Virus record (IMG/VR): IMGVR_UViG_3300044712_000593
Coordinates: 1 to 41,121 of that record
Source: a virus
DNA length: 41,121 nt
Reading direction: 5' to 3' (one strand)
In this document: positions 3,808 through 40,148 of the stretch, piece by piece
How positions within the stretch are numbered: position 1 is the first letter of the stretch
Layout: each line of letters starts with the position of its first letter
Translations under genes and position numbers: made by a program
Notes under the pieces: model-generated
Told to the model about the DNA's origin: nothing
The model's input: only the letters and a program-made list of their open reading frames with translations
The model's database searches: none

Positions 3808-3837
3808 AAAAAGGCCGCAATATAGACATATTGCGGC
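3808..3837 (-). terminator. Rho-independent terminator of the minus-strand lysis operon
   Basis: GCCGCAATAT (3814-3823) pairs perfectly with ATATTGCGGC (3828-3837) around an AGAC loop. Read on the minus strand, the hairpin is followed by CC and then TTTTT. It lies 40 nt past the endolysin stop, so it ends the long minus-strand late transcript. It faces the plus-strand terminator structure next to it. Confidence 0.85.
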
Positions 3838-8044: not shown

Positions 8045-11000
8045 TTATTTAATTGCCCATGCTGATGTGCTTACTGCTCCTATTTCTTTTACTTCATATT
8101 GGGCGGTTAATGTAGTAGACGTTGCTCCATTTATGGTATCGCTACCAGACCTTGAAATAGTTACAGTATTTGCAAGCGTATTATCTACTCTCCTAAACAC
8201 ATAATGAATCCCCATCGATGATCCAAATACAGAAGATGCCGCTGGTAGCGTAATTGTTACGTTGCCCCCAGACGCATCTATGTTTGCCCAATACTCTGCA
8301 TTTGTCATTGTATGATCTGCACTAAAATCACTTACCCTATAAAAATTACCACGCCCAGATTGTAATCCGTGTAAATACGCGGCACCATCTGCATATAATG
8401 GAGCCGTAGTCGGAGGCGTAGAAGTGCCAATTGCAACATTATTATTTGTATCTATTGCTATTCCAGATCCTTTACTAAATGTTCCAGCAGTAGGGGTATA
8501 TCCAATCCATAACTGTTGCGCAGGGGCTACTATTGCACTCGTATAAGGAAATGTTCCGTCTGCCTTAGCCTGAACATACGCATCATAATTAATCCTGAAT
8601 GTATTTACATCTGAAAATGTTAAATTAAGATTATTTAAATCCACATCCCTATTTCCAGAAACTGTTCCATCTCCTGTATATAATGTGGTTGCGGCTACTG
8701 GTAAATCGGTATACGAAAGCAATCCATTTGTATCACAGATGACCATTTTAGTAGTTCCTTCAGTGGCAGGAGCCGTTACGGTTGTCTTTAAGGTTTGAAT
8801 ATTAACAAGCCCTTTTGTCCACAAATTACCATTCCCCCTAACATGGAATATGCTGTCATTGGTATTGTAATGATTATATATGCCGAACATTCGATCTGAT
8901 GCGCTGATTGCATTATCCTTATTTATAAATTGCTTACCTATAACATTTACATCAGCAAACCCGCTGGCATCCGTATTGGCTTGAAACACTAATCCCTGAC
9001 TTGATGATGCGACACCAAATGCAGTTGTGCTATTTGCTAAGTTGAATAAACGTACCTGCTTACCGTCAACATAGAAGTGTTTTTTTGATTGGATAACACC
9101 TGTAGCAACTCCGGGTGATGGGATTATAAGATCAATATCAGATCCAATATTCAGCTGGCCGACTCCACCAGCCGCTAATGTAGCAGTCCCTCCTGATGCG
9201 GTGTCTACATTCATGGCCATATACCATTGCTGTAAATATCCGGCGTAGCAACCAATCACACCCGGATTATTAATCGCTTGCAGTTTAAAATGCGATGGAT
9301 CGAGTACCGCATATTCACGGTCATAATATGGACTATTTTCAATACTCAGATTCCATCTGTTATCTGATGATCGCGTTGTTAAGTTGGCAGATCCATCAAG
9401 TTGGCTTACAAACCATGACCAATTCCTTGTCTCATTATTTGGGTTGGGCATGTTACGTGATTTCGTAACGAAAGCATGATACTCGGTATGGTTATAGTAA
9501 GACTGTTCCAATCGGATTGATGCGTATGGTTTTGTATCACCGTGAGCACCAAACGATAATAAGGTATACACGGGGTTTTCTGGTTGCGTTACATCATATA
9601 ATGTATTATCCATTGCACCGTAAAATGGCTGCAACGTATCTGCACCAGTTCCGCCGCTCCCTCTCGGATATACCATCCATAATTTACCAGTTGTAAAATT
9701 CCATGCACTATCTTGAAAAAAACCTCTAACGGGTCGTCCGTATTGAAAATAATCCTGTGATGTTAATATTTTTTTCTGTGAAGGATAATATTGTAGGCTA
9801 TCCCCACCGAATGATCCAGCATTATTATATTGAATTGAATTTAAAGGGGTTGCAGGATTACCAACTAAAGTTAAATCATATTGTGTTGCTAGTACTGATG
9901 TGTCTGCTTTTGCTGTTAAAGCATTTGAGTTGCTTGTGCTATCCCATAATATAGTATTACTGGCAAAAACTGTTTTAATATTATTTGTGTTTGGCACCAC
10001 CCATCTATATCCACTACCTATATTGCTATTCGTAAAATTTATTTGAGTAAGATCATATTGTGTCGCAATTGCAGACGTATCTACCTTTACTGTTATATTA
10101 CTGGCTGTAGGCGTTGAAATTAGCCCGTACGAAAAGTTTAATCTTTTTACGGTATCATCTCCAATAACAAGTGTGTCTCCTGCGCCGGATGCATTGTAAA
10201 TAGCCAATTCATTGCCATCTGAATAGGATGTAATGCGCCCTTTTTGATCTATACTCAATTGACAATTAATACAAGCTCCTGCGCTTACTAAGTCTGCTAA
10301 AGAAATAGTTCCACTTCCATTATCAGTAAAATAACTATTATCAAACGTAGCGGCCCCTTTTGTTCCTGATGCAGTAGCATTTTGTATTCCTATCGCCCCT
10401 GTTGTAGTATTATATGTAATTGGTGATGTGCCAGATAAAAGACCGCGTACTTTTAGATAAAAGTTCGATATTGCTGCCGTATCAAAAGTAGCTAATGTGC
10501 CATTTCCTCGAATGTATTGCAATGTAGTTCCGGCCCCCGATACTGCTAAAGTTCCGGCTCCCGTTATTGGTGATCCGCTTACATTGAATGCAGATGGCAT
10601 AGATAGCCCAACGCTTGTAACTGTTCCTCCGCTGCCTCCGCTTACCCTGATCCTAATTGTATCCGAAATACCATCAATTCTAGCAATAAACGAAGTATCC
10701 GTTAGCTGAGAAATGCTTATCAGGGTTTTTTGCGGATCAATTAAAAGTTTTCCTTGTGTTACATGAGAATTAAGGCAATATCCAATAAAGACAGAGAAAT
10801 TGGGTACGTCCGGCTGAACATTAGTTAAGGCTCCCGGAGTCGTTGGACTCAAGTACAACTTGTCTCCTGCGGAGAAGGATGATGTATTAATGTCATTAAC
10901 CAATCCAAAAGTAGTTACCTTACCAACAGTATTATTGGCTATATTATGCGTTGCTATTCCTATAACCCTTGAGGTAACAACATTATTTGATCTTGCTAAT

Positions 11001-29129: not shown

Positions 29130-30569
29130 TTAAACACCAGGAACAAAAATGAACTGGTTTGCTGCACAAACGCGGATCGCGCGATAACAGGCCATTTCAA
29201 TATTATCCCTTAATGTACCATCTGAAGGATTGGTTGATCCACCACCCCAGTTCCATACACGGATACCATTACCAATAGATCCGCCCTTTGGAGGTTCTTG
29301 TGTCATCACGGTAATGTTTTTGTATACGCGTGAAGGGGTTTTGGCATCCGGAGTTTCACCCATTGGAGTAATCCAACCGCTGTTACGGAAATAATCGGTA
29401 GCGGGTGTTAAGCCGGTGTATGCTTCGGTGTTCAGATTACGATATTTATGGGTCTGGAAACGGTATCCATCAATATCTATAATCTTGAAACCATACGCAA
29501 CACTTGCTTCTTCCGATTTTTCACCTTGTCCCCATACAAATGCACCAGCGGGAAACTCAGCAAAAATACCATCTGAAAAATCCTGTTTTTGGAAAATATC
29601 ACTCATCCACATATTCTGTTTCGTACATCCGTTTACATCCATTACACGGGTTAACGTATGCAGGAATGGGATATCCAAATTTCCGGGAGTGTAGCCTACT
29701 GTTTCGGCATCGGCCATAAGTTTAGGAAAAAATCCTTGACAGCCTACAGATGTAGTGGTTCCTAATCCGGTATTATCAACGGAATCACCCATCATCAATT
29801 TGCGTTCTACGTTATTTACAAAACGTTGAGATGCTTTGGTTAATCCAATATAAGTGAAATAACTTGTACCGGCTTGGGCTGCACCTGCTATTGGGCCACC
29901 GCTTACACCGCTATCCACAAACACATCAGTCATTTCGCCTAAATCGGTAGCTGACCATGTATCATGAATTTCAGTAATATTATTATCGTAGCGCTGAGTA
30001 AGATAAACTTGTGGTGTGCTTGTTCCAGATGCTTCGCCAACATCCACACGACCACCAAATATCAATACATCGGTAGCCAGCAATGTAGCCGCCTGACCAG
30101 CAGATGCTAATGATTGAGTGGATTTTTTAGGCCGCATAGTGAATGTAAAGGCACCTGCAACTGAGGTATCAATGGTCAATATCTCACCGCCTACGTTTGT
30201 AGAAGCCACGTAGATTGTTTCGCCTACACGAAGCGGACTTGTTGTGCCGGAATCATAGTGAAATCCTGATGCCAAAGTAGCTGTAACAGTAGCACCAGCA
30301 GTAGCACCAGTTGCATTCGATGCCAACTGAATACCAATCTGAAGTTTACCACGGTTTTCAAACCAGAAAAAGTTACGGTTTTTAACGATTTCCATACCAC
30401 CATAAGTAGCTAACCACCATGTCCAGTTTTCAGCGCCGTATTTTTCTACGAATTGACGATAATATTGTGGTGTTAAAAGTTGTAACTGGGATACAAGCGC
30501 TCTGTTCGCGCCGCCCGATACTGATATATTACCGGGCTGCAATATGTTTGAGGTAGGTATACCTGCCAT
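29130..30569 (-). CDS. Major capsid protein, 479 aa
   Basis: This is the probable HK97-fold capsid protein. The N-terminal arm begins MAGIPTSNILQPGNISVSGG, then LTPQYYRQFVEKYG and WTWWLATYGGMEIVKNRNFF, which looks like the start of the shell domain. A large Ala/Thr/Gly beta insertion follows (ASNATGATAGATVTATLASG), then SYFTYIGLTKASQRFVNNVE and a C-terminal part with YKNITVMTQEPPKGGSIGNG and MACYRAIRVCAANQF. The size matches capsid proteins of crAss-like phages (~490 aa). It follows the scaffold gene, and its start lies in an A-rich leader (ttaatttaaaaacaATG), consistent with high expression. Confidence 0.75.
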   Translation of the reverse strand: MAGIPTSNILQPGNISVSGGANRALVSQLQLLTPQYYRQFVEKYGAENWTWWLATYGGMEIVKNRNFFWFENRGKLQIGIQLASNATGATAGATVTATLASGFHYDSGTTSPLRVGETIYVASTNVGGEILTIDTSVAGAFTFTMRPKKSTQSLASAGQAATLLATDVLIFGGRVDVGEASGTSTPQVYLTQRYDNNITEIHDTWSATDLGEMTDVFVDSGVSGGPIAGAAQAGTSYFTYIGLTKASQRFVNNVERKLMMGDSVDNTGLGTTTSVGCQGFFPKLMADAETVGYTPGNLDIPFLHTLTRVMDVNGCTKQNMWMSDIFQKQDFSDGIFAEFPAGAFVWGQGEKSEEASVAYGFKIIDIDGYRFQTHKYRNLNTEAYTGLTPATDYFRNSGWITPMGETPDAKTPSRVYKNITVMTQEPPKGGSIGNGIRVWNWGGGSTNPSDGTLRDNIEMACYRAIRVCAANQFIFVPGV

Positions 30570-32238: not shown

Positions 32239-32517
32239 TTACAGAGTTATAGTTATCAATTCGTTTATTTTCAAAACTCCTGGTGTATTAGAATCACAAG
32301 CATTTACTGGCATTGGAGGCTTAATTCGAAAGCTGTGCCCTTTTGTATCAATAAAATCAATATATCCGGTTTTGCTGGATGACGATATATTACAACTTTG
32401 GCCTATTACTAATAAAGGCAAGATGCTTATTGTTTCGGCTTGTGAAAGACTAACCAGCACTGATTGACCTTTTAAAGCGGGTTGATCTTTAGTATTGGTT
32501 GCATTGACTGTTGCCAT
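32239..32517 (-). CDS. Small head-module protein, 92 aa
   Basis: The protein begins MATVNATNTKDQPALKGQSV and is beta-rich with a GYIDFIDTKGHSFRIKPP segment. It has the composition of a small decoration or head-completion protein, but I recognise no family. It is the first gene after the 435-nt noncoding gap, so it would head the transcript that continues through scaffold and capsid. A TATGTTTA sequence 18-25 nt upstream resembles a -7 element. Confidence 0.5.
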   Translation of the reverse strand: MATVNATNTKDQPALKGQSVLVSLSQAETISILPLLVIGQSCNISSSSKTGYIDFIDTKGHSFRIKPPMPVNACDSNTPGVLKINELITITL

Positions 32518-32952
32518 ATTAATTAATTTATATATTAAACATACGAACTCTATTTCTGCACCCTATTATAGAGCAGCTTTGACTTACCATTTAGTTAAAG
32601 CACCCCTCATTATTGGTTTAGGCTCCTATCGCACTATACAAATCTATAGCCTATCCACTAACCAAAGATTAAGCTAATCAGGGTTTATTGTCAATACCTA
32701 AATTAGCAGATTAACGACCACGCAAAAAGCACAAGTGGAATGTTCGTGCATTTTTTGTGAGAGTTGTCAGTTCGACGACATTGCTCCCTTTGCGGCCACC
32801 CTTTTAAGGGCTAATTGATAAAAAGAGCGAACTTTTAAAAAAAAGTCCTAATTTTGAGTTATTAGACGTTTAGTCAGCGTCAACCGGTCAAATTGTTTCA
32901 AAACACCGGTTATATGTTATCGAAGCCACCGTTTATCTATTCGGTGGTTTTT
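32518..32952. other. 435-nt hairpin-rich noncoding gap beside the portal gene
   Basis: No credible ORF exists here on either strand. Several stems are visible. TTGGTT+TAGGCT (32613-32624) pairs with AGCCTA (32648-32653) and AACCAA (32660-32665). A 14-bp arm 32719-32732 pairs with 32746-32759 (two mismatches). GTTGTC/GACGAC is at 32763-32768/32774-32779. CCCTTTTAAGGG is at 32799-32810. GACG/CGTC is at 32865-32868/32878-32881. AACCGGT/ACCGGTT is at 32882-32888/32905-32911. The last element is a plus-strand terminator (separate entry). In an otherwise tightly packed late operon such a gap probably holds a noncoding RNA, a promoter, or both. The transcribed strand is undecided, but the terminator favours plus. 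Confidence 0.5.
32666..32694 (-). promoter_or_regulatory. Candidate minus-strand promoter for the head genes
   Basis: On the minus strand TTGACA (32694-32689) is followed after 17 nt by TAATCT (32671-32666), a close match to a classic sigma-70 promoter. A second overlapping arrangement, TTTG (32666-32663), 16 nt and TAGATTTG (32646-32639), fits the Bacteroidota-type -7 element TAnnTTTG with a slightly short spacer. Either would transcribe the small head proteins, scaffold and capsid. The choice between them is open. Confidence 0.35.
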
Positions 32953-32954
32953 TT
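32923..32954 (+). terminator. Plus-strand terminator overlapping the portal stop codon
   Basis: CCACCG (32926-32931) pairs with CGGTGG (32942-32947), and the flanking AAG/TTT can extend the stem. Seven T residues follow directly on the plus strand. The T tract runs into the reverse complement of the portal stop codon. There is no U tract on the minus strand, so this terminator serves plus-strand RNA although no plus-strand gene precedes it. The same design, with the T tract overlapping the stop of the opposing gene, is seen at 40117-40148. Confidence 0.75.
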
Positions 32955-35379
32955 ATTGCATTTGCTCTTGCATTTCTTGTTCTATTGGTTCGCCTTCAGC
33001 CTGAGCTTCTTGCGCCATTTGCTGTTGTTGTGCGTTCTGCATCATTATTCCTTGTACCATTTGCTGGTTCTCTTGTTGCAATGGTAGCGCTATTCCTGGA
33101 ATAATTTGATTTAGAACCGGAGTCAACCATGAAGGCATTTGCGGATTTTCTGCACGGGCTGCTACTTGAAATGCACCACGTACAAATTCAACTTTCATTT
33201 CTTGTATAGCTTTGAACAATGCTAATTCTTTTTCATGGTCTAATTTCGTATTCTGCGTTTGTTGTTCTGCTTGTGCTGCTAACTGTGCAGATTGCTGCTG
33301 CGCCATAGCGTTATTCTCTACATCTTGCTGTTTTTGCTGCTGCTGTGAGCGAAGCATTTTCTTTACAGAATTACGGTAATAAACCTCAGCAAGTTTTATG
33401 TTCTCTTTTGCAATTCGCATTAGTTTGAATGTATCAACGTATAATGCAAATTCAGGATTTGAGGCAGTTTGCTGATTAAGCAATGCCTGAAACTGCTGTA
33501 ATTCAAATTGGGTCGGGAGTAATTGAAACTTGGTTGAGAAATGGCGGTCTTTTACATCTTCCTCATTCATTAAATGCCGATATGCAGAAGCTCCTAACCG
33601 AACTGAATTATTTAAAAGACAAGCTACTTTTTTAGCTGTCTCCTCCATGATTCGGGCATACGAATTATAAATATAATCGGTTGCATATTCCGCTTGCTGC
33701 TGAGATGACGCAACATTTTCTGACGTAACTCTTGGTTGTACTGCTGCCGTTAACAAATTAGGATCTTCGCCCAATTCATCTTTTAGAACTTTGTAGTGGT
33801 ATTCGTAAAGCTGAATTAACCCGTTAAGTTGTGCAATAAATCCTGCATTTTGAAGCTCCTGAATAGGTATTGGTATTGGATTACCTTCGGCATCGCGGCC
33901 ACGATAATATAACAACCCGGTTTGCTGATAAAGTTTTTGCGGATCTATTGGAGTCTTCCCATCTGCCGCTAACCCTAAATCCAATTCCTGCATCGCATCC
34001 CAATTAATTGCAGCACCGGCAGGTATCATATTAGCTACCAATTGCATTATTTTCAACCGAGCTAATATCATTTGTTCAACTGGCTCCTCGATCTTTTCAG
34101 GTATGGCAACATTGCGCATATCCTGATTCTGGTACATATAAAAACTAACCGGAAACTCTACATCACCGGATTCTTTGGGGTCTTGGGAGCGGATCATGTT
34201 GTTATCCAATCCCCATTCCAGCATCGTCATGGACGTTCTGGCATAAACACCTTTGTAAAGATTCCATTTATCTTTCTTTACGTATTCCTGATTGTCTCCT
34301 AAGTTATTTGGTTGTTTTGGTCTGCGTTCAATTAATGTTCTGTTATTCTGCTTTGTTACCGTCATCACGTACCCATCTTCATCTACTGATTTATACCAGA
34401 AATAAATCGCCTCAACATTCCATTCATCATATGGGCGTATATAAGCCAGCAGCCAATCATAATTCCATGTGAGTTTATCGAATCGCTGATATTCCTGAGC
34501 GCTTTGGGCAATTTTAAATATTTCTTCTTCGGACAATTTTCCACCAAACTCTTTACCATATCGCTTACGTAATTCTGATATTTTCAATGATTTCACAAAT
34601 CCACGCATAGCGGTATCACGCATATCATCAAACTCAGAAAATGAGTAAATCGTATTCAATGGTTTTATCCATTCAACATGAATAACTCCAAATTCATCCA
34701 TATGAACATACGTCGCTACTAATCCACATTCGGCAGCATCGTGTAGTAACTTATCTTTTATAACATCAAAAAGCCCTTGTGATTGAAATATATCATTGGT
34801 TCCTACTTCGTATTTAATTTCTTCCGGTAGTTGATTCCCTATTGCAGACCATTCATCTAAATCATCTTTATCTTCTGCTACAAATTGATCAGGTGAAACC
34901 ATTGGGACTCCCGATTCCTTTTGCAGTATTTCAAGCTGCTGCCGGTTGTACAAAACAAATTCCGCTTGTTCGTATTGATCTTTTTTTGCTTTTGTTGAAA
35001 TGGGGTCAATAGCAGTTACCTGAATCTTTTCCTGCCTCTGCATCCAGCGTCCTACCAATCCGGTAATAATCCGGTTAACCAACATCGGGGCGCTCCATCG
35101 AATATTCGCGTAGTTAATCTTCCCGTTAAGACCAGTTAAATCAGCAAACTTTGTATAGATGTTTATCTTTCCTGACGACCATAAAATATTGGTTTTGAAC
35201 CTTTCATTACGAAGGAATGTATAAGTATTACTGGCGCTTGAACTATACTTGGCTTCAATGTCTTGGGCTAATCTTTTCCCGTATTCAGGGGATAATTTAT
35301 TTTCGATGTTTCTTGAAAGAAGAAAATCTTTATAGCTGTACCCGGAATTTTCAATATTTTGTTGCTGTATATCAGGCAT
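32953..35379 (-). CDS. Portal protein, 808 aa
   Basis: This is probably the dodecameric portal at the DNA entry vertex. The N-terminal region has APMLVNRIITGLVGRWMQRQ and KIQVTAIDPISTKAKKDQYE (around residues 95-135), the typical phage portal context of conserved helix and strand. The central part is YVHMDEFGVIHVEWIKPLNT with a long wing-like domain, followed by YNWWNGA-free helical stem segments such as PVEQMILARLKIMQLVANMI. The last ~150 residues are Gln-rich and helical (QQQKQQDVENNAMAQQQSAQ), a common barrel or tail extension. The length (808) equals that of crAss-like portals. TerL lies directly upstream, and a good Bacteroidota promoter precedes the ATG. Confidence 0.8.
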   Translation of the reverse strand: MPDIQQQNIENSGYSYKDFLLSRNIENKLSPEYGKRLAQDIEAKYSSSASNTYTFLRNERFKTNILWSSGKINIYTKFADLTGLNGKINYANIRWSAPMLVNRIITGLVGRWMQRQEKIQVTAIDPISTKAKKDQYEQAEFVLYNRQQLEILQKESGVPMVSPDQFVAEDKDDLDEWSAIGNQLPEEIKYEVGTNDIFQSQGLFDVIKDKLLHDAAECGLVATYVHMDEFGVIHVEWIKPLNTIYSFSEFDDMRDTAMRGFVKSLKISELRKRYGKEFGGKLSEEEIFKIAQSAQEYQRFDKLTWNYDWLLAYIRPYDEWNVEAIYFWYKSVDEDGYVMTVTKQNNRTLIERRPKQPNNLGDNQEYVKKDKWNLYKGVYARTSMTMLEWGLDNNMIRSQDPKESGDVEFPVSFYMYQNQDMRNVAIPEKIEEPVEQMILARLKIMQLVANMIPAGAAINWDAMQELDLGLAADGKTPIDPQKLYQQTGLLYYRGRDAEGNPIPIPIQELQNAGFIAQLNGLIQLYEYHYKVLKDELGEDPNLLTAAVQPRVTSENVASSQQQAEYATDYIYNSYARIMEETAKKVACLLNNSVRLGASAYRHLMNEEDVKDRHFSTKFQLLPTQFELQQFQALLNQQTASNPEFALYVDTFKLMRIAKENIKLAEVYYRNSVKKMLRSQQQQKQQDVENNAMAQQQSAQLAAQAEQQTQNTKLDHEKELALFKAIQEMKVEFVRGAFQVAARAENPQMPSWLTPVLNQIIPGIALPLQQENQQMVQGIMMQNAQQQQMAQEAQAEGEPIEQEMQEQMQ

Positions 35380-35436: not shown

Positions 35437-37497
35437 CTAATTCGACGAAAAATTTGTATTTACATAGCTACGGATAGGGCTTTCGGCTGGTGGTTTTGGC
35501 TTCCTAATTGGCTCCATCATTAATGAAATATTTATCAAAAATGACACGATTGCATCTTCTTTTGTTCTATTATACGGATCGAACTTCGGCGCTCTTTCTA
35601 ATATCACCATAAAATCAATTGAATCACAATGATGTTCAAAATAGGAAATACCATTATCATGCTGTTTAGTCAAACTATAGGGGCTCAATGGCGTGCCATA
35701 TGGCCTATGCGGGCCTTTTTCTCCGGCCTTTTTTATTTCATCAGGGCTAATTAATCCTAATGGACATATTCCTAGATATTTTATTCTGCCTCGCTCTCTA
35801 AAGAATTTCACGAAATCATCTACAGCAAATTCATATGTAGCTTTTACCCCCTGAAACTCTGCACATAATAATACCTGGCTATGTAAATCATCTTTCTCGT
35901 TGGGCCTACCATATAAATGACCTGTTACTTTAAACAATTTACGATTGCCATACCACGCAGACGCTTTACTTCCATATTTGTGACCGCCTGTTGAATTTGC
36001 ATAACTATCTATGGATATAACTCCATCTTCTTCTCTATTTGGCGCTCGTAATTTATCCATAAATTTCATAACATCATTTCTTATAGACAAATCAAAGTCT
36101 GGTGATACTTCCCAGTAAAAATCTCCATCACTTTTTATAACATCTCTCCACTTTACTTGTTGAGTTTCCTCATCTCTATAAAATATTATTTTACGAAACT
36201 GAATAGGATTCTCTCTAAGAAATTTCTTTCTTGTATCTATATTCTCTGTATTGAATATACTTTTATCACTATCAGAACTAAATGCTTCGTCAATAGTTCT
36301 GGGCTCTTTCTTTTTTCTGGCTGATAAAGCGCGTGGATTTTTAGCAGATTCTCGATCTATTAATATGTCTTCAATTGTCTTCCCAACATCCGGATCTCCG
36401 TATATATCAAAAAACTTTGTCTCATCAGCAGTTTGAAAAAATCTATAAAGACCACTTTCTGTCATTCCTTTAGAATTCTTTTTAGTTTGGTCGCTAGAAT
36501 CCCATAATTGCTGGGCTGCTTCTTGTACACCATCCTTTTCACTATCCAACTTTTCAACTGTAGAAAAATAGAACGCTTTCCCGATTATCCTGCCTTCTTC
36601 ATCTACCAAACAGTACCGTATAACTTCATGCCGATCAAACACATTGCATTCTGTAGTTTTCGCCCACTCATCTCCAAAATATACGTGTATTTTTTGACCA
36701 TCATAGGCAACGGCATCTGCACTTTGAAAATCTATCATCGATCCTAACTCTTCTTTATCAATATTATCTTCCGCTTTTTTACCTCTAACATTCGTTTGCT
36801 GAAATCGCATTTCTGTTTTAGGGGTGACACCTAAAGACATATCATATTCTGGACGAAAAAATCTTGGCAGTTTCTTAAATGGCTGGACTACTGCTTTTCC
36901 AAAAACCTTTTTTGCATCATTTCCTGTTTTAGACTGAATAGCACCAACGGCCATTTTAGTTCGTGTTGGATATTCAGTAACTAATAACCCACCTATATAT
37001 GTTTTCAAAAACCTACGCTTTGTAATAGCAATCATGCCCATACACAATGGGTCTTCAATACAATAATTAATGAAATAGAATTTCATTAGATGTGGTTTTG
37101 TGAATTTAACAAACCCTATATCTATGCTCCACCACTGAAGCATCATCCAATAGTTACCAGGAATATAAACCGCCTTCCCTTTTATCATTATCCATGTTCC
37201 GTTAAGCCTCTTATCCCATTGAATGCCGATAAATTCATTCAAATCTTCATCATAAAAATCAGTATCGCCATCCTTTTTCTTTTTCTCATATAAATCCCAT
37301 TGTTTCATGGTGTCTTTATACCAACTAGGTAATGGCTCTCTTTCCCAATACTGCTCCAATGGGTTATCAGAACGACTATAAACACCGCGATATTCAAGTT
37401 GCTTGGTAACTATATTCCATACATATCCTTCAGGGGGCAAATGACATTCTAAGCCTTGAATATTTATTATGGAGTCGCCTTCTATTTTTTGATACAT
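35437..37497 (-). CDS. terL: Terminase large subunit, 686 aa
   Basis: This is the packaging ATPase and nuclease. A Walker A-like motif AITKRRFLKTYIGG (residues 157-170) has the R-R-x-x-K-T pattern but lacks the usual Gly before Lys. Walker B is HVYFGDEW (271-278, Asp-276/Glu-277 acidic pair). A coupling motif FSTVEK lies at 311-316. A nuclease-type strand GVISIDSYANS (Asp-497) begins the C-terminal RNase H-like domain, which ends near RTKEDAIVSFLIN with a candidate last acidic residue. The length is typical for crAss-like TerL. It starts 3 nt after the preceding small gene, the TerS candidate. The divergent P-loop is worth a check but is common in phage terminases. Confidence 0.88.
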   Translation of the reverse strand: MYQKIEGDSIINIQGLECHLPPEGYVWNIVTKQLEYRGVYSRSDNPLEQYWEREPLPSWYKDTMKQWDLYEKKKKDGDTDFYDEDLNEFIGIQWDKRLNGTWIMIKGKAVYIPGNYWMMLQWWSIDIGFVKFTKPHLMKFYFINYCIEDPLCMGMIAITKRRFLKTYIGGLLVTEYPTRTKMAVGAIQSKTGNDAKKVFGKAVVQPFKKLPRFFRPEYDMSLGVTPKTEMRFQQTNVRGKKAEDNIDKEELGSMIDFQSADAVAYDGQKIHVYFGDEWAKTTECNVFDRHEVIRYCLVDEEGRIIGKAFYFSTVEKLDSEKDGVQEAAQQLWDSSDQTKKNSKGMTESGLYRFFQTADETKFFDIYGDPDVGKTIEDILIDRESAKNPRALSARKKKEPRTIDEAFSSDSDKSIFNTENIDTRKKFLRENPIQFRKIIFYRDEETQQVKWRDVIKSDGDFYWEVSPDFDLSIRNDVMKFMDKLRAPNREEDGVISIDSYANSTGGHKYGSKASAWYGNRKLFKVTGHLYGRPNEKDDLHSQVLLCAEFQGVKATYEFAVDDFVKFFRERGRIKYLGICPLGLISPDEIKKAGEKGPHRPYGTPLSPYSLTKQHDNGISYFEHHCDSIDFMVILERAPKFDPYNRTKEDAIVSFLINISLMMEPIRKPKPPAESPIRSYVNTNFSSN

Positions 37498-37881: not shown

Positions 37882-38136
37882 TCAATTTAATATTTGTTCA
37901 GCAGGAATTACCGGTAAATCTTCTGCGCTGCACGTGCATGGTCTTAAAACAAATGTGCTAACATACGAAAACCCATCTTCGGTTGCGTCGTCTTCCACTG
38001 GTAAATCAACACATTCTGATTGTTCGAAACACACAGTTATATAAGTTTCATCTCCATGAGGCATGACTACTGTCATGTCATCTGGAAGGCATGATATTAA
38101 TTCTTTTAATTCAGCTATTGACATATTGAAATTCAT
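37882..38136 (-). CDS. Hypothetical acidic protein, 84 aa
   Basis: The small acidic protein begins MNFNMSIAELKELISCLPDD and contains MTVVMPHGDETYITVCFEQS and a CTCSAEDLP end. Its start overlaps the preceding gene by 26 nt (14 nt if the second Met is used). No family is recognised. It sits between the terminase genes and the 240-residue gene upstream, and its role is unknown. Confidence 0.5.
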   Translation of the reverse strand: MNFNMSIAELKELISCLPDDMTVVMPHGDETYITVCFEQSECVDLPVEDDATEDGFSYVSTFVLRPCTCSAEDLPVIPAEQILN

Positions 38137-38833
38137 TTAATGTTTTGCAATCGCTTTTTGATAACCCAATAAGCAACTCCCCATTCAATATTTGCTTTGT
38201 CATTTTATGATCAATGGCAATAACTTCTTCCTCTCTTTTCTCTGCTTCATCGCCATCAGGACGGCATCTTATTATTCTCGCCTCTCTGCCTGTTTCTGGC
38301 TCCCTAAAAACAATTTCATAGTCGGCAGCTTTAACGGTTCGTACGGCCAAATCTTTATACTCACCAGTTCGCATCCACAATGAATCCTTAATAAGTGTTG
38401 GCTCAATTCCTTGAATACTTCCTCTATAAGGTTTGAAGATTCTATATGCAAATGCGAATCCTTTTGCTGGTTGCCATTCTCCATCTGGCATTTTCCATGC
38501 ATAACATTCTTTTTCGAGTATAGAAAAATATTTAACTTGTGACGCAATTTTTTCACCACTTAAATTTCCTGCATTAAATATTTCGTGATTAGCATGAGTG
38601 GCATTGTGATGAAAAAGAATAATGGCTCCTTCTGGAATATTTTCTCCGCTTATTACTGTTCCTTGTATTGGTTCTGTTTCGCGACGATTGAAGTTGTCAT
38701 ACTGCCTCTCCAAGCGAATAGTAAGACCATGCGAAAACGTATGGTGGTTTTTTTCCTGCATCCATACTTTTACAACAACCCTACCTTCGATATGTGCAAG
38801 TTTTCCTTGTTTAGTATTAGATTCTAATATCAT
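38111..38833 (-). CDS. Hypothetical protein with GroES-like N-terminal region, 240 aa
   Basis: The first ~80 residues have a pattern like the start of a co-chaperonin: RVVVKVWMQEKNHHTFSHGL, then RRETEPIQGTVISGENIPEG and AIILFHHNATH. That is VxVK, a loop, GxVxxG and xEGAxxLF in the same order as in Cpn10. The remaining 160 residues are mixed with a basic Arg-rich strand set (FREPETGREARIIRCRPDGD). This similarity is weak and may be coincidental. It lies upstream of the TerS candidate. The true GroES homologue is at 25845-26114. Confidence 0.5.
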   Translation of the reverse strand: MILESNTKQGKLAHIEGRVVVKVWMQEKNHHTFSHGLTIRLERQYDNFNRRETEPIQGTVISGENIPEGAIILFHHNATHANHEIFNAGNLSGEKIASQVKYFSILEKECYAWKMPDGEWQPAKGFAFAYRIFKPYRGSIQGIEPTLIKDSLWMRTGEYKDLAVRTVKAADYEIVFREPETGREARIIRCRPDGDEAEKREEEVIAIDHKMTKQILNGELLIGLSKSDCKTLNEFQYVNS

Positions 38834-39807: not shown

Positions 39808-40077
39808 ATGGCACTAACAGGCGGACGCATTACCGCGTCCATTTACCGAATCAACCAATACGATATTAAAAATGTATTGGGAACACCAGCCACACAAGGC
39901 GTAATTGAAAATTTACCTGGCCCTCTTTGCCGATTTTATCCTGCACCAATTAACACAACCGCAAACGGTGTTACTATGAATGCTATTATTGATTTACTTC
40001 CAACAGGATTAAATCAACCGGTTACAAAGTATTATACTGATTCTACTGTTGCACAGATCCTAAGCAATGGTTCATAG
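39808..40077 (+). CDS. Lone plus-strand protein of unknown function, 89 aa
   Basis: This 89-residue protein begins MALTGGRITASIYRINQYDI. Its composition (Thr, Ala, Pro, Asn, Gly) and alternation suggest a beta-rich small protein (TTANGVTMNAIIDLLPTGLN). There is no signal or membrane segment. It stands alone on the plus strand inside a minus-strand region, with its own promoter candidate and a strong terminator. The ATG lies in aattaaattaaaaaaacaATG, very close to the leader of the capsid gene, which points to strong expression. It could be a small decoration, head or regulatory protein, but I recognise no family. Confidence 0.7.
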   Translation: MALTGGRITASIYRINQYDIKNVLGTPATQGVIENLPGPLCRFYPAPINTTANGVTMNAIIDLLPTGLNQPVTKYYTDSTVAQILSNGS

Positions 40078-40116: not shown

Positions 40117-40148
40117 CCCCGACTACCATTTTAGTCGGGGATTTTTTT
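40117..40148 (+). terminator. Strong rho-independent terminator of the lone gene
   Basis: CCCCGACTA (40117-40125) pairs perfectly with TAGTCGGGG (40132-40140) around CCATTT, followed by A and seven T residues. It ends the transcript of the plus-strand gene at 39808. The T tract overlaps the stop codon of the converging GT2 gene on the minus strand. Confidence 0.9.

Follow-up and report, generated by a model that had tools for sequence, protein, structure and literature searches.

Gene context of the portal-g92 gap

The window, the whole stretch of DNA that was analyzed, is a virus record of 41,121 bases whose right-hand genes lie on the minus strand. Genes for a large terminase, a portal-like protein and the 92-aa protein g92 were found in this block, with genes for a 116-aa protein, a 408-aa protein and a virion structural protein (29130-30569) following in order beyond g92 (Table 1). 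The portal-like protein was 20-25% identical by tblastn to the annotated portals of Maribacter, Cellulophaga and other phages, and by portal the phages at issue are related to phages of Cellulophaga, Maribacter and Flavobacterium.

Between the portal-like and g92 genes, 435 nt without a gene separate the flanking minus-strand ORFs at 32953 and 32517, which bears out the gap in the operon on which the original prediction of a noncoding RNA was built. A coding gap was ruled out: several of the indels that distinguish it from its homologue in a related phage (L007, below) are of 2 nt, and the two sequences therefore have no frame in common. The prediction had further held that no plus-strand gene precedes the terminator at the portal-side edge. 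This also proved correct, with only a 60-aa TTG ORF (32495-32677) overlapping the gap mechanically. No tRNA or tmRNA was detected in the window.

Compared with dinucleotide shuffles, the 435-nt gap was found to fold with a z-score of -4.04 on the plus strand and -3.04 on the minus strand, and none of 100 shuffles was as good on either strand. At its portal-side edge, a GC-rich hairpin leads straight into a T tract, as in a plus-strand intrinsic terminator, and the tract overlaps the portal stop codon on the opposite strand. The predicted plus-strand terminator with seven T residues (T7) was thus confirmed, and hairpin and T7 were retained in L007 with an altered stem sequence. Since they were present in both of these related phages and absent from a third carrier of the element (L138, below), which is without a T-run on the plus-equivalent strand, the hairpin and T7 are part of the edge and not of the RNA family.

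Table 1. Genes and RNA features at the locus. Positions are those of the window unless another locus is named; for RNA features the strand is that of the model.
Feature	Position	Strand	Remarks
Large terminase	35437-37497	minus	686 aa, large-subunit type; phrog_6681, E 2e-48
Portal-like protein	32953-35379	minus	808 aa, upstream of element; tblastn matches among annotated Bacteroidetes phage portals
g92	32239-32517	minus	92 aa, downstream of element; in many relatives, element present or not
Protein next to L138 element	L138:3381-3944		187 aa; start codon is the ATG of the 15-nt block
Edge hairpin and T7	32923-32954	plus	T7 at 32948-32954; -11.3 kcal; intrinsic terminator at portal-side edge
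Entire structured RNA element	32538-32954	minus	edges approximate; 77% identical to L007; block order common with L138
Hairpin P2	32882-32911	minus	sense AACCGGU...ACCGGUU; folds on sense strand in 3/3 members
Hairpin P3	32865-32881	minus	GACG/CGUC in window, GCAA/UUGC in L007
Hairpin P4	32829-32848	minus	3 both-side changes, window vs L007
Hairpin P5	32798-32811	minus	2 both-side changes, window vs L007
Three-way junction	32716-32797	minus	stem A, hairpin B, hairpin C; model R1, covariation
Invariant 22-nt block	32763-32784	minus	sense GCAATGTCGTCGAACTGACAAC; hairpin B, loop UCGAAC; exact in 3/3 members
Stem D	32673-32707	minus	sense GCUAAUU/GAUUAGC; G-U on sense in L007
Invariant 15-nt block	32540-32554	minus	sense AATAGAGTTCGTATG; RNA 3' end; exact in 3/3 members
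Predicted pseudoknot partner	32544-32549	minus	AGUUCG; pairs with hairpin-B loop CGAACU, 32769-32774
P1, 3' strand	32538-32543	minus	UAUGUU; pairs with AACAUA, 32913-32918, closing element

Distribution among portal relatives

The portal-g92 junction was compared in 16 IMG/VR loci with 46-71% portal identity; L004/L008, L011/L012 and L009/L013 appear to be near-duplicates in the region, as judged by identical gene coordinates. At this site the portal gene and the next gene overlapped or were at most 34 nt apart in 12 of the 16 relatives. These include L009 and L013, where an ORF begins 18 nt past the portal despite the larger distance listed by tblastn. A spacing of 139 nt holding a short reading frame was found in L004 and L008, and L005 was found to have a 227-aa HNH endonuclease ORF (8436-9119; phrog_374, E 3e-51) exactly at the junction. 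The gap at the same site in L007 was 451 nt, 77% identical to the window over 402 nt (E 5e-74). An apparent 1.8-kb gap in L130 proved to be an extended coding gene.

Full-length DNA searches of the whole records detected the element in one of the 16 relatives (L007) and only short chance-level pieces in the records of two others. Similarly, the covariance model R1 (see below) recovered the window and one of the 16 relatives' records, and the element was single copy in each record. Among 73 further portal relatives, 50 records were searched whole by DNA, in a search lacking its own positive control, and gave no match. With an nhmmer profile run on all loci through L141, only weak scores were obtained beyond the window and L007 copies and the two contigs described below. 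Because the element was absent from 15 of the 16 portal relatives and from the other records searched whole, it is accessory, and the portal/g92 junction is a variable cargo slot.

Between its edge hairpin and P1, L007 was also found to hold a 17-nt exact copy (L007:8439-8455) of a piece of the window's hairpin C, additional to its own hairpin C. This piece may be a trace of partial duplication or recombination between element copies.

A third member in an unrelated phage

A scan of IMG/VR with the 17-mer GTTGTCAGTTCGACGAC returned five stretches. L138 and L141, which are 99.6% identical over 4,122 nt, carry both the invariant 22-mer and the invariant 15-mer in the order and orientation of the window and L007, at a spacing of 211 nt in L138, 230 nt in the window and 235 nt in L007; L139 and L140 were judged chance. 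A scan with the 15-mer returned 20 stretches, of which three were L018 (the same as L007), L138 and L141, and the other 17 were without the 22-mer (at best 10-14 of its 22 bases). When a relaxed 16-base pattern was used, 22 stretches were returned, 19 of them judged chance coding matches, and no further member was found. The distinct members are thus three (window, L007 and L138/L141), two of them close, as counted in this IMG/VR collection at the pattern exactness used.

L138 lies on an unrelated phage contig and is not a portal region; it encodes a DNA methyltransferase, a primase/helicase and a DNA polymerase. The start of the 187-aa protein next to its element was placed by alignment with the homologue in MW202701, where the annotated neighbourhood has no comparable gap before this gene. 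No family match (Pfam, PHROGs, NCBIfam) and no PDB match was found for the 187-aa protein, and it is unrelated to g92, with only chance-level blastp matches. By eye, the residues around its NYDLIIDSLRVDVKTKK look like a PD-(D/E)XK nuclease core. Upstream of the element, on the sense strand, L138 has a hairpin followed by a U-run that is terminator-like.

No match to the element was obtained in a search of the whole window against Rfam at the gathering score, and at permissive thresholds (E<=5 / E<=3) the three members gave only sub-threshold, mutually inconsistent matches. Searches of INPHARED with each of the three members gave no genuine match (three AT-rich matches of 30-38 nt were judged chance), and PLSDB gave none with the window element as query. 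For bacterial genomes, 31 exact 18-mer matches were rejected as homologues, their flanks being dissimilar by eye and their nhmmer scores weak. Across 395 Bacteroidota genomes, the 22-mer was not found with up to 2 mismatches; model R1 gave three matches of about 27 bits, which were without the invariant block and of which at least two resemble terminator hairpins. In the open-licence literature, no paper was recognized as describing the element.

Conserved structure of the element

The aligned window and L007 sequences were folded with RNAalifold and compared to 150 column shuffles. The minus strand gave -76.8 kcal vs -40.1 +/- 4.6 for the shuffles (z -8.0) and the plus strand -57.5 kcal vs -31.6 +/- 4.5 (z -5.8), with no shuffle as good on either strand. 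A covariance model of the three-way junction, R1, was trained solely on the window and L007 with L138 held out. By this approach, the sense model was found to detect L138 at 29.8 bits (E 5e-7), a score that is in part not independent since L138 was found via 17 bases within the junction region. When the three members were aligned, 9 of the 25 junction pairs had both-side changes, pairing was kept in 97.2% of 71 cells and none of 500 shuffles reached the covariation score, in an alignment that was fitted to the model and is hence biased toward structure. The window and L007 alone gave two both-side changes, and 128 of 500 shuffles reached their score; the covariation support therefore comes from L138.

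Stems P1, P2, P3, P4, P5 and D were added by a strand-neutral stem search. Compensatory changes in predicted helices, as are generally looked for in structured noncoding RNAs, were thus present among related genomes, and the structured noncoding RNA of the original prediction, which had named a lack of such changes among its grounds for refutation, is supported.

The two invariant blocks may be joined to one another. The hairpin-B loop CGAACU and the AGUUCG of the 3' block can form 6 bp, a run that arose between the blocks in 3.4% of pairs upon letter shuffling (chance 0.034), and both blocks are invariant in all members and hence display no covariation at this pairing. On this modeled pairing, the loop of hairpin B and the 3' block are likely to form a pseudoknot. 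The segment GAGUUCG has two rival partners, AACUC (in the alifold structure) and the hairpin-B loop.

Strand of the element

The evidence on strand is mixed, and we consider it fairly probable that the element is read on the minus (operon-sense) strand. The energy gap between sense and antisense was matched by only 8 of 200 shuffles, the strand-neutral stem tally gave 15 sense G-U cells vs 7 A-C cells, and P2 of L138 folds at -8.6 kcal on the sense vs 0 on the antisense strand. An antisense model of the same span detected L138 at 17.7 bits (E 0.05) compared to the 29.8 bits of the sense model, a difference that partly reflects structure choice and not strand alone because the antisense model has a different helix set. 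The single-sequence z-score of L138 likewise favors minus (-1.98 vs -0.42 on plus). No promoter, processing site or 3' terminator was identified on the sense strand.

An independent antisense transcript, running on the plus strand from about 32535 to the T7 terminator and serving as a head-gene regulator or a trans-acting RNA, 'moron'-like with its own terminator, is a credible but unlikely alternative. In both related phages the conserved hairpin and T7 sit directly on the element's edge, and the simpler reading of them is as the terminus of a plus-strand RNA; the closing stem P1 joins the ends just before this terminator. Single-sequence z-scores also favor plus in the window (-4.40 vs -2.97 on minus) and in L007 (-2.10 vs -1.36), and P3 (window and L007), D (window) and the edge hairpin (window) are stronger there. 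By contrast, the G-U tally, the L138 stems and the model test favor the sense strand, L138 has no T-run on the plus-equivalent strand, and no conserved upstream promoter was recognized by eye. The plus-strand transcription of the original prediction is its weaker part, supported by the T7 hairpin and the z-scores of the window and L007 and opposed by the G-U pairs, the stems of L138 and the held-out model test; of the two roles it had offered, an antisense regulator of the head genes is possible.

The other, a packaging RNA, is unlikely. The phage packaging RNA of phi29, pRNA, is likewise a phage RNA, and the element happens to adjoin a portal gene. However, the element has no Rfam match, its third member lies beside replication-type genes and not beside a portal, and the terminase in the window is of the 686-aa large-subunit type. 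An RNA required for packaging would be kept with the same portal; since 15 of the 16 portal relatives lack the element, most of them having no more than 34 nt at this place, packaging does not require it. The portal-side gap is instead a variable cargo slot.

A proposed accessory structured RNA

The account that we favor, with belief and doubt in about equal measure, is that the gap holds an accessory, horizontally exchanged structured RNA of a non-Rfam family, carried in a minus-sense late transcript. One related phage carries a noncoding, covarying homologue at this site and an unrelated phage carries one among different genes; the role of the element is apparently dispensable. As to function, we infer that the element would be read on the minus strand as part of the portal-to-head late transcript and that its RNA would fold into P2-P5, the three-way junction and additional stems, with P1, together with the pseudoknot of the hairpin-B loop and the 3' block near the following start codon, closing the fold. 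The phage would gain a stable folded RNA, acting most likely in trans or as its own particle, like other ornate phage-borne RNAs; in addition, it might exert local control over the start codon that follows. At the edge, the plus-strand hairpin and T7 may keep antisense transcription from running into the portal gene.

Start-codon control could also be the main role. The element would then be a cis-acting leader: with the start region of the following gene caught up in P1 and the pseudoknot, that gene would be controlled at the level of translation or transcription. We consider this reading unlikely. A start codon lies at the end of the element or a short way past it in all three members: in L138 the invariant 3' block ends at the start codon of the next gene and includes it, and in the window and L007 about 20-30 nt separate the block from one. 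A leader role in L138 is plausible because of the terminator-like hairpin and U-run upstream on the same strand, and the competing partners of GAGUUCG also speak for a leader. However, the downstream genes are unrelated, g92 is retained in relatives without the element, and the conserved ATG of the 15-mer differs from the g92 start in the window and L007.

Rather doubtful is a wider form of the cargo account, in which a new class of pseudoknotted RNAs of about 350-400 nt is passed among unrelated phages, riding in late or replication operons as autonomous cargo, the hairpin-B loop locking the RNA's own 3' end by the start codon; such RNAs might act with the endonucleases that share the slot, as an RNA particle or as a counter-defence RNA. 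Very unlikely is a DNA-level mobile element or remnant (a MITE or homing-related insertion) conserved solely as DNA hairpins: the patchy distribution, the HNH endonuclease ORF in the same slot of L005 and the second copy of a hairpin C piece beside the edge hairpin of L007 would suit it, but invariant loops and compensatory changes over about 400 nt suit an RNA function better, no target duplication was seen by eye and each record has a single copy.

Comparison of the accessory RNA with known systems was as follows. HEARO and omega RNAs are the RNAs of IscB-type nucleases, and the element similarly is a structured RNA directly upstream of an ORF, with a nuclease ORF in the slot of L005. It differs by having no Rfam match; moreover, the portal-like and g92 genes flank it in the window and L007, and the neighbor protein in L138 had no IscB/TnpB-type match in Pfam, PHROGs or NCBIfam. 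Phage Group I introns are similar in size and multi-helix fold, and an HNH endonuclease lies at the same site in L005. However, the element lies between genes and not within one, and a Group I intron was rejected, as no catalytic core was recognized by the family model in the three members at E<=5 or E<=3. GOLLD and ROOL are presented in PMC12286853 as nanocage-forming phage and prophage RNAs of unknown function; they share with the element that they are noncoding, elaborately structured, phage-borne and patchy in distribution. By contrast, the element is about 400 nt with no tRNA nearby, and it matched no family covariance model of GOLLD, ROOL or OLE (gathering score; E<=5/E<=3). Few large structured RNAs are known from phages, most of them without an assigned function; to these the element adds another candidate family that has two invariant blocks, a junction supported by covariation and a testable pseudoknot. 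Primers and probes are now available for testing directly what cargo RNAs of this kind do.

Other terminator-like hairpins in the window

A simple terminator scan of this half of the window returned 15 sites vs 12.9 +/- 3.8 expected. The edge site, at 32947, was not listed because its loop of 10 is longer than the scan permits. According to the original prediction, both of the other plus-strand terminators in the window close a coding unit on that strand. This was true of the terminator at 40117, which comes after a plus-strand ORF (39808-40077), but not of the hairpin and T7 at 38726-38752 (plus), which sit within a minus-strand gene (38111-38833), in the part that matches a GroES-like family; a hairpin with T7 can therefore arise inside coding sequence here. 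Where the plus-strand left arm gives way to the block of minus-strand genes, a strong hairpin with a T-rich tail was observed on the minus strand (3814-3837), and it looks like a terminator at the convergent junction.
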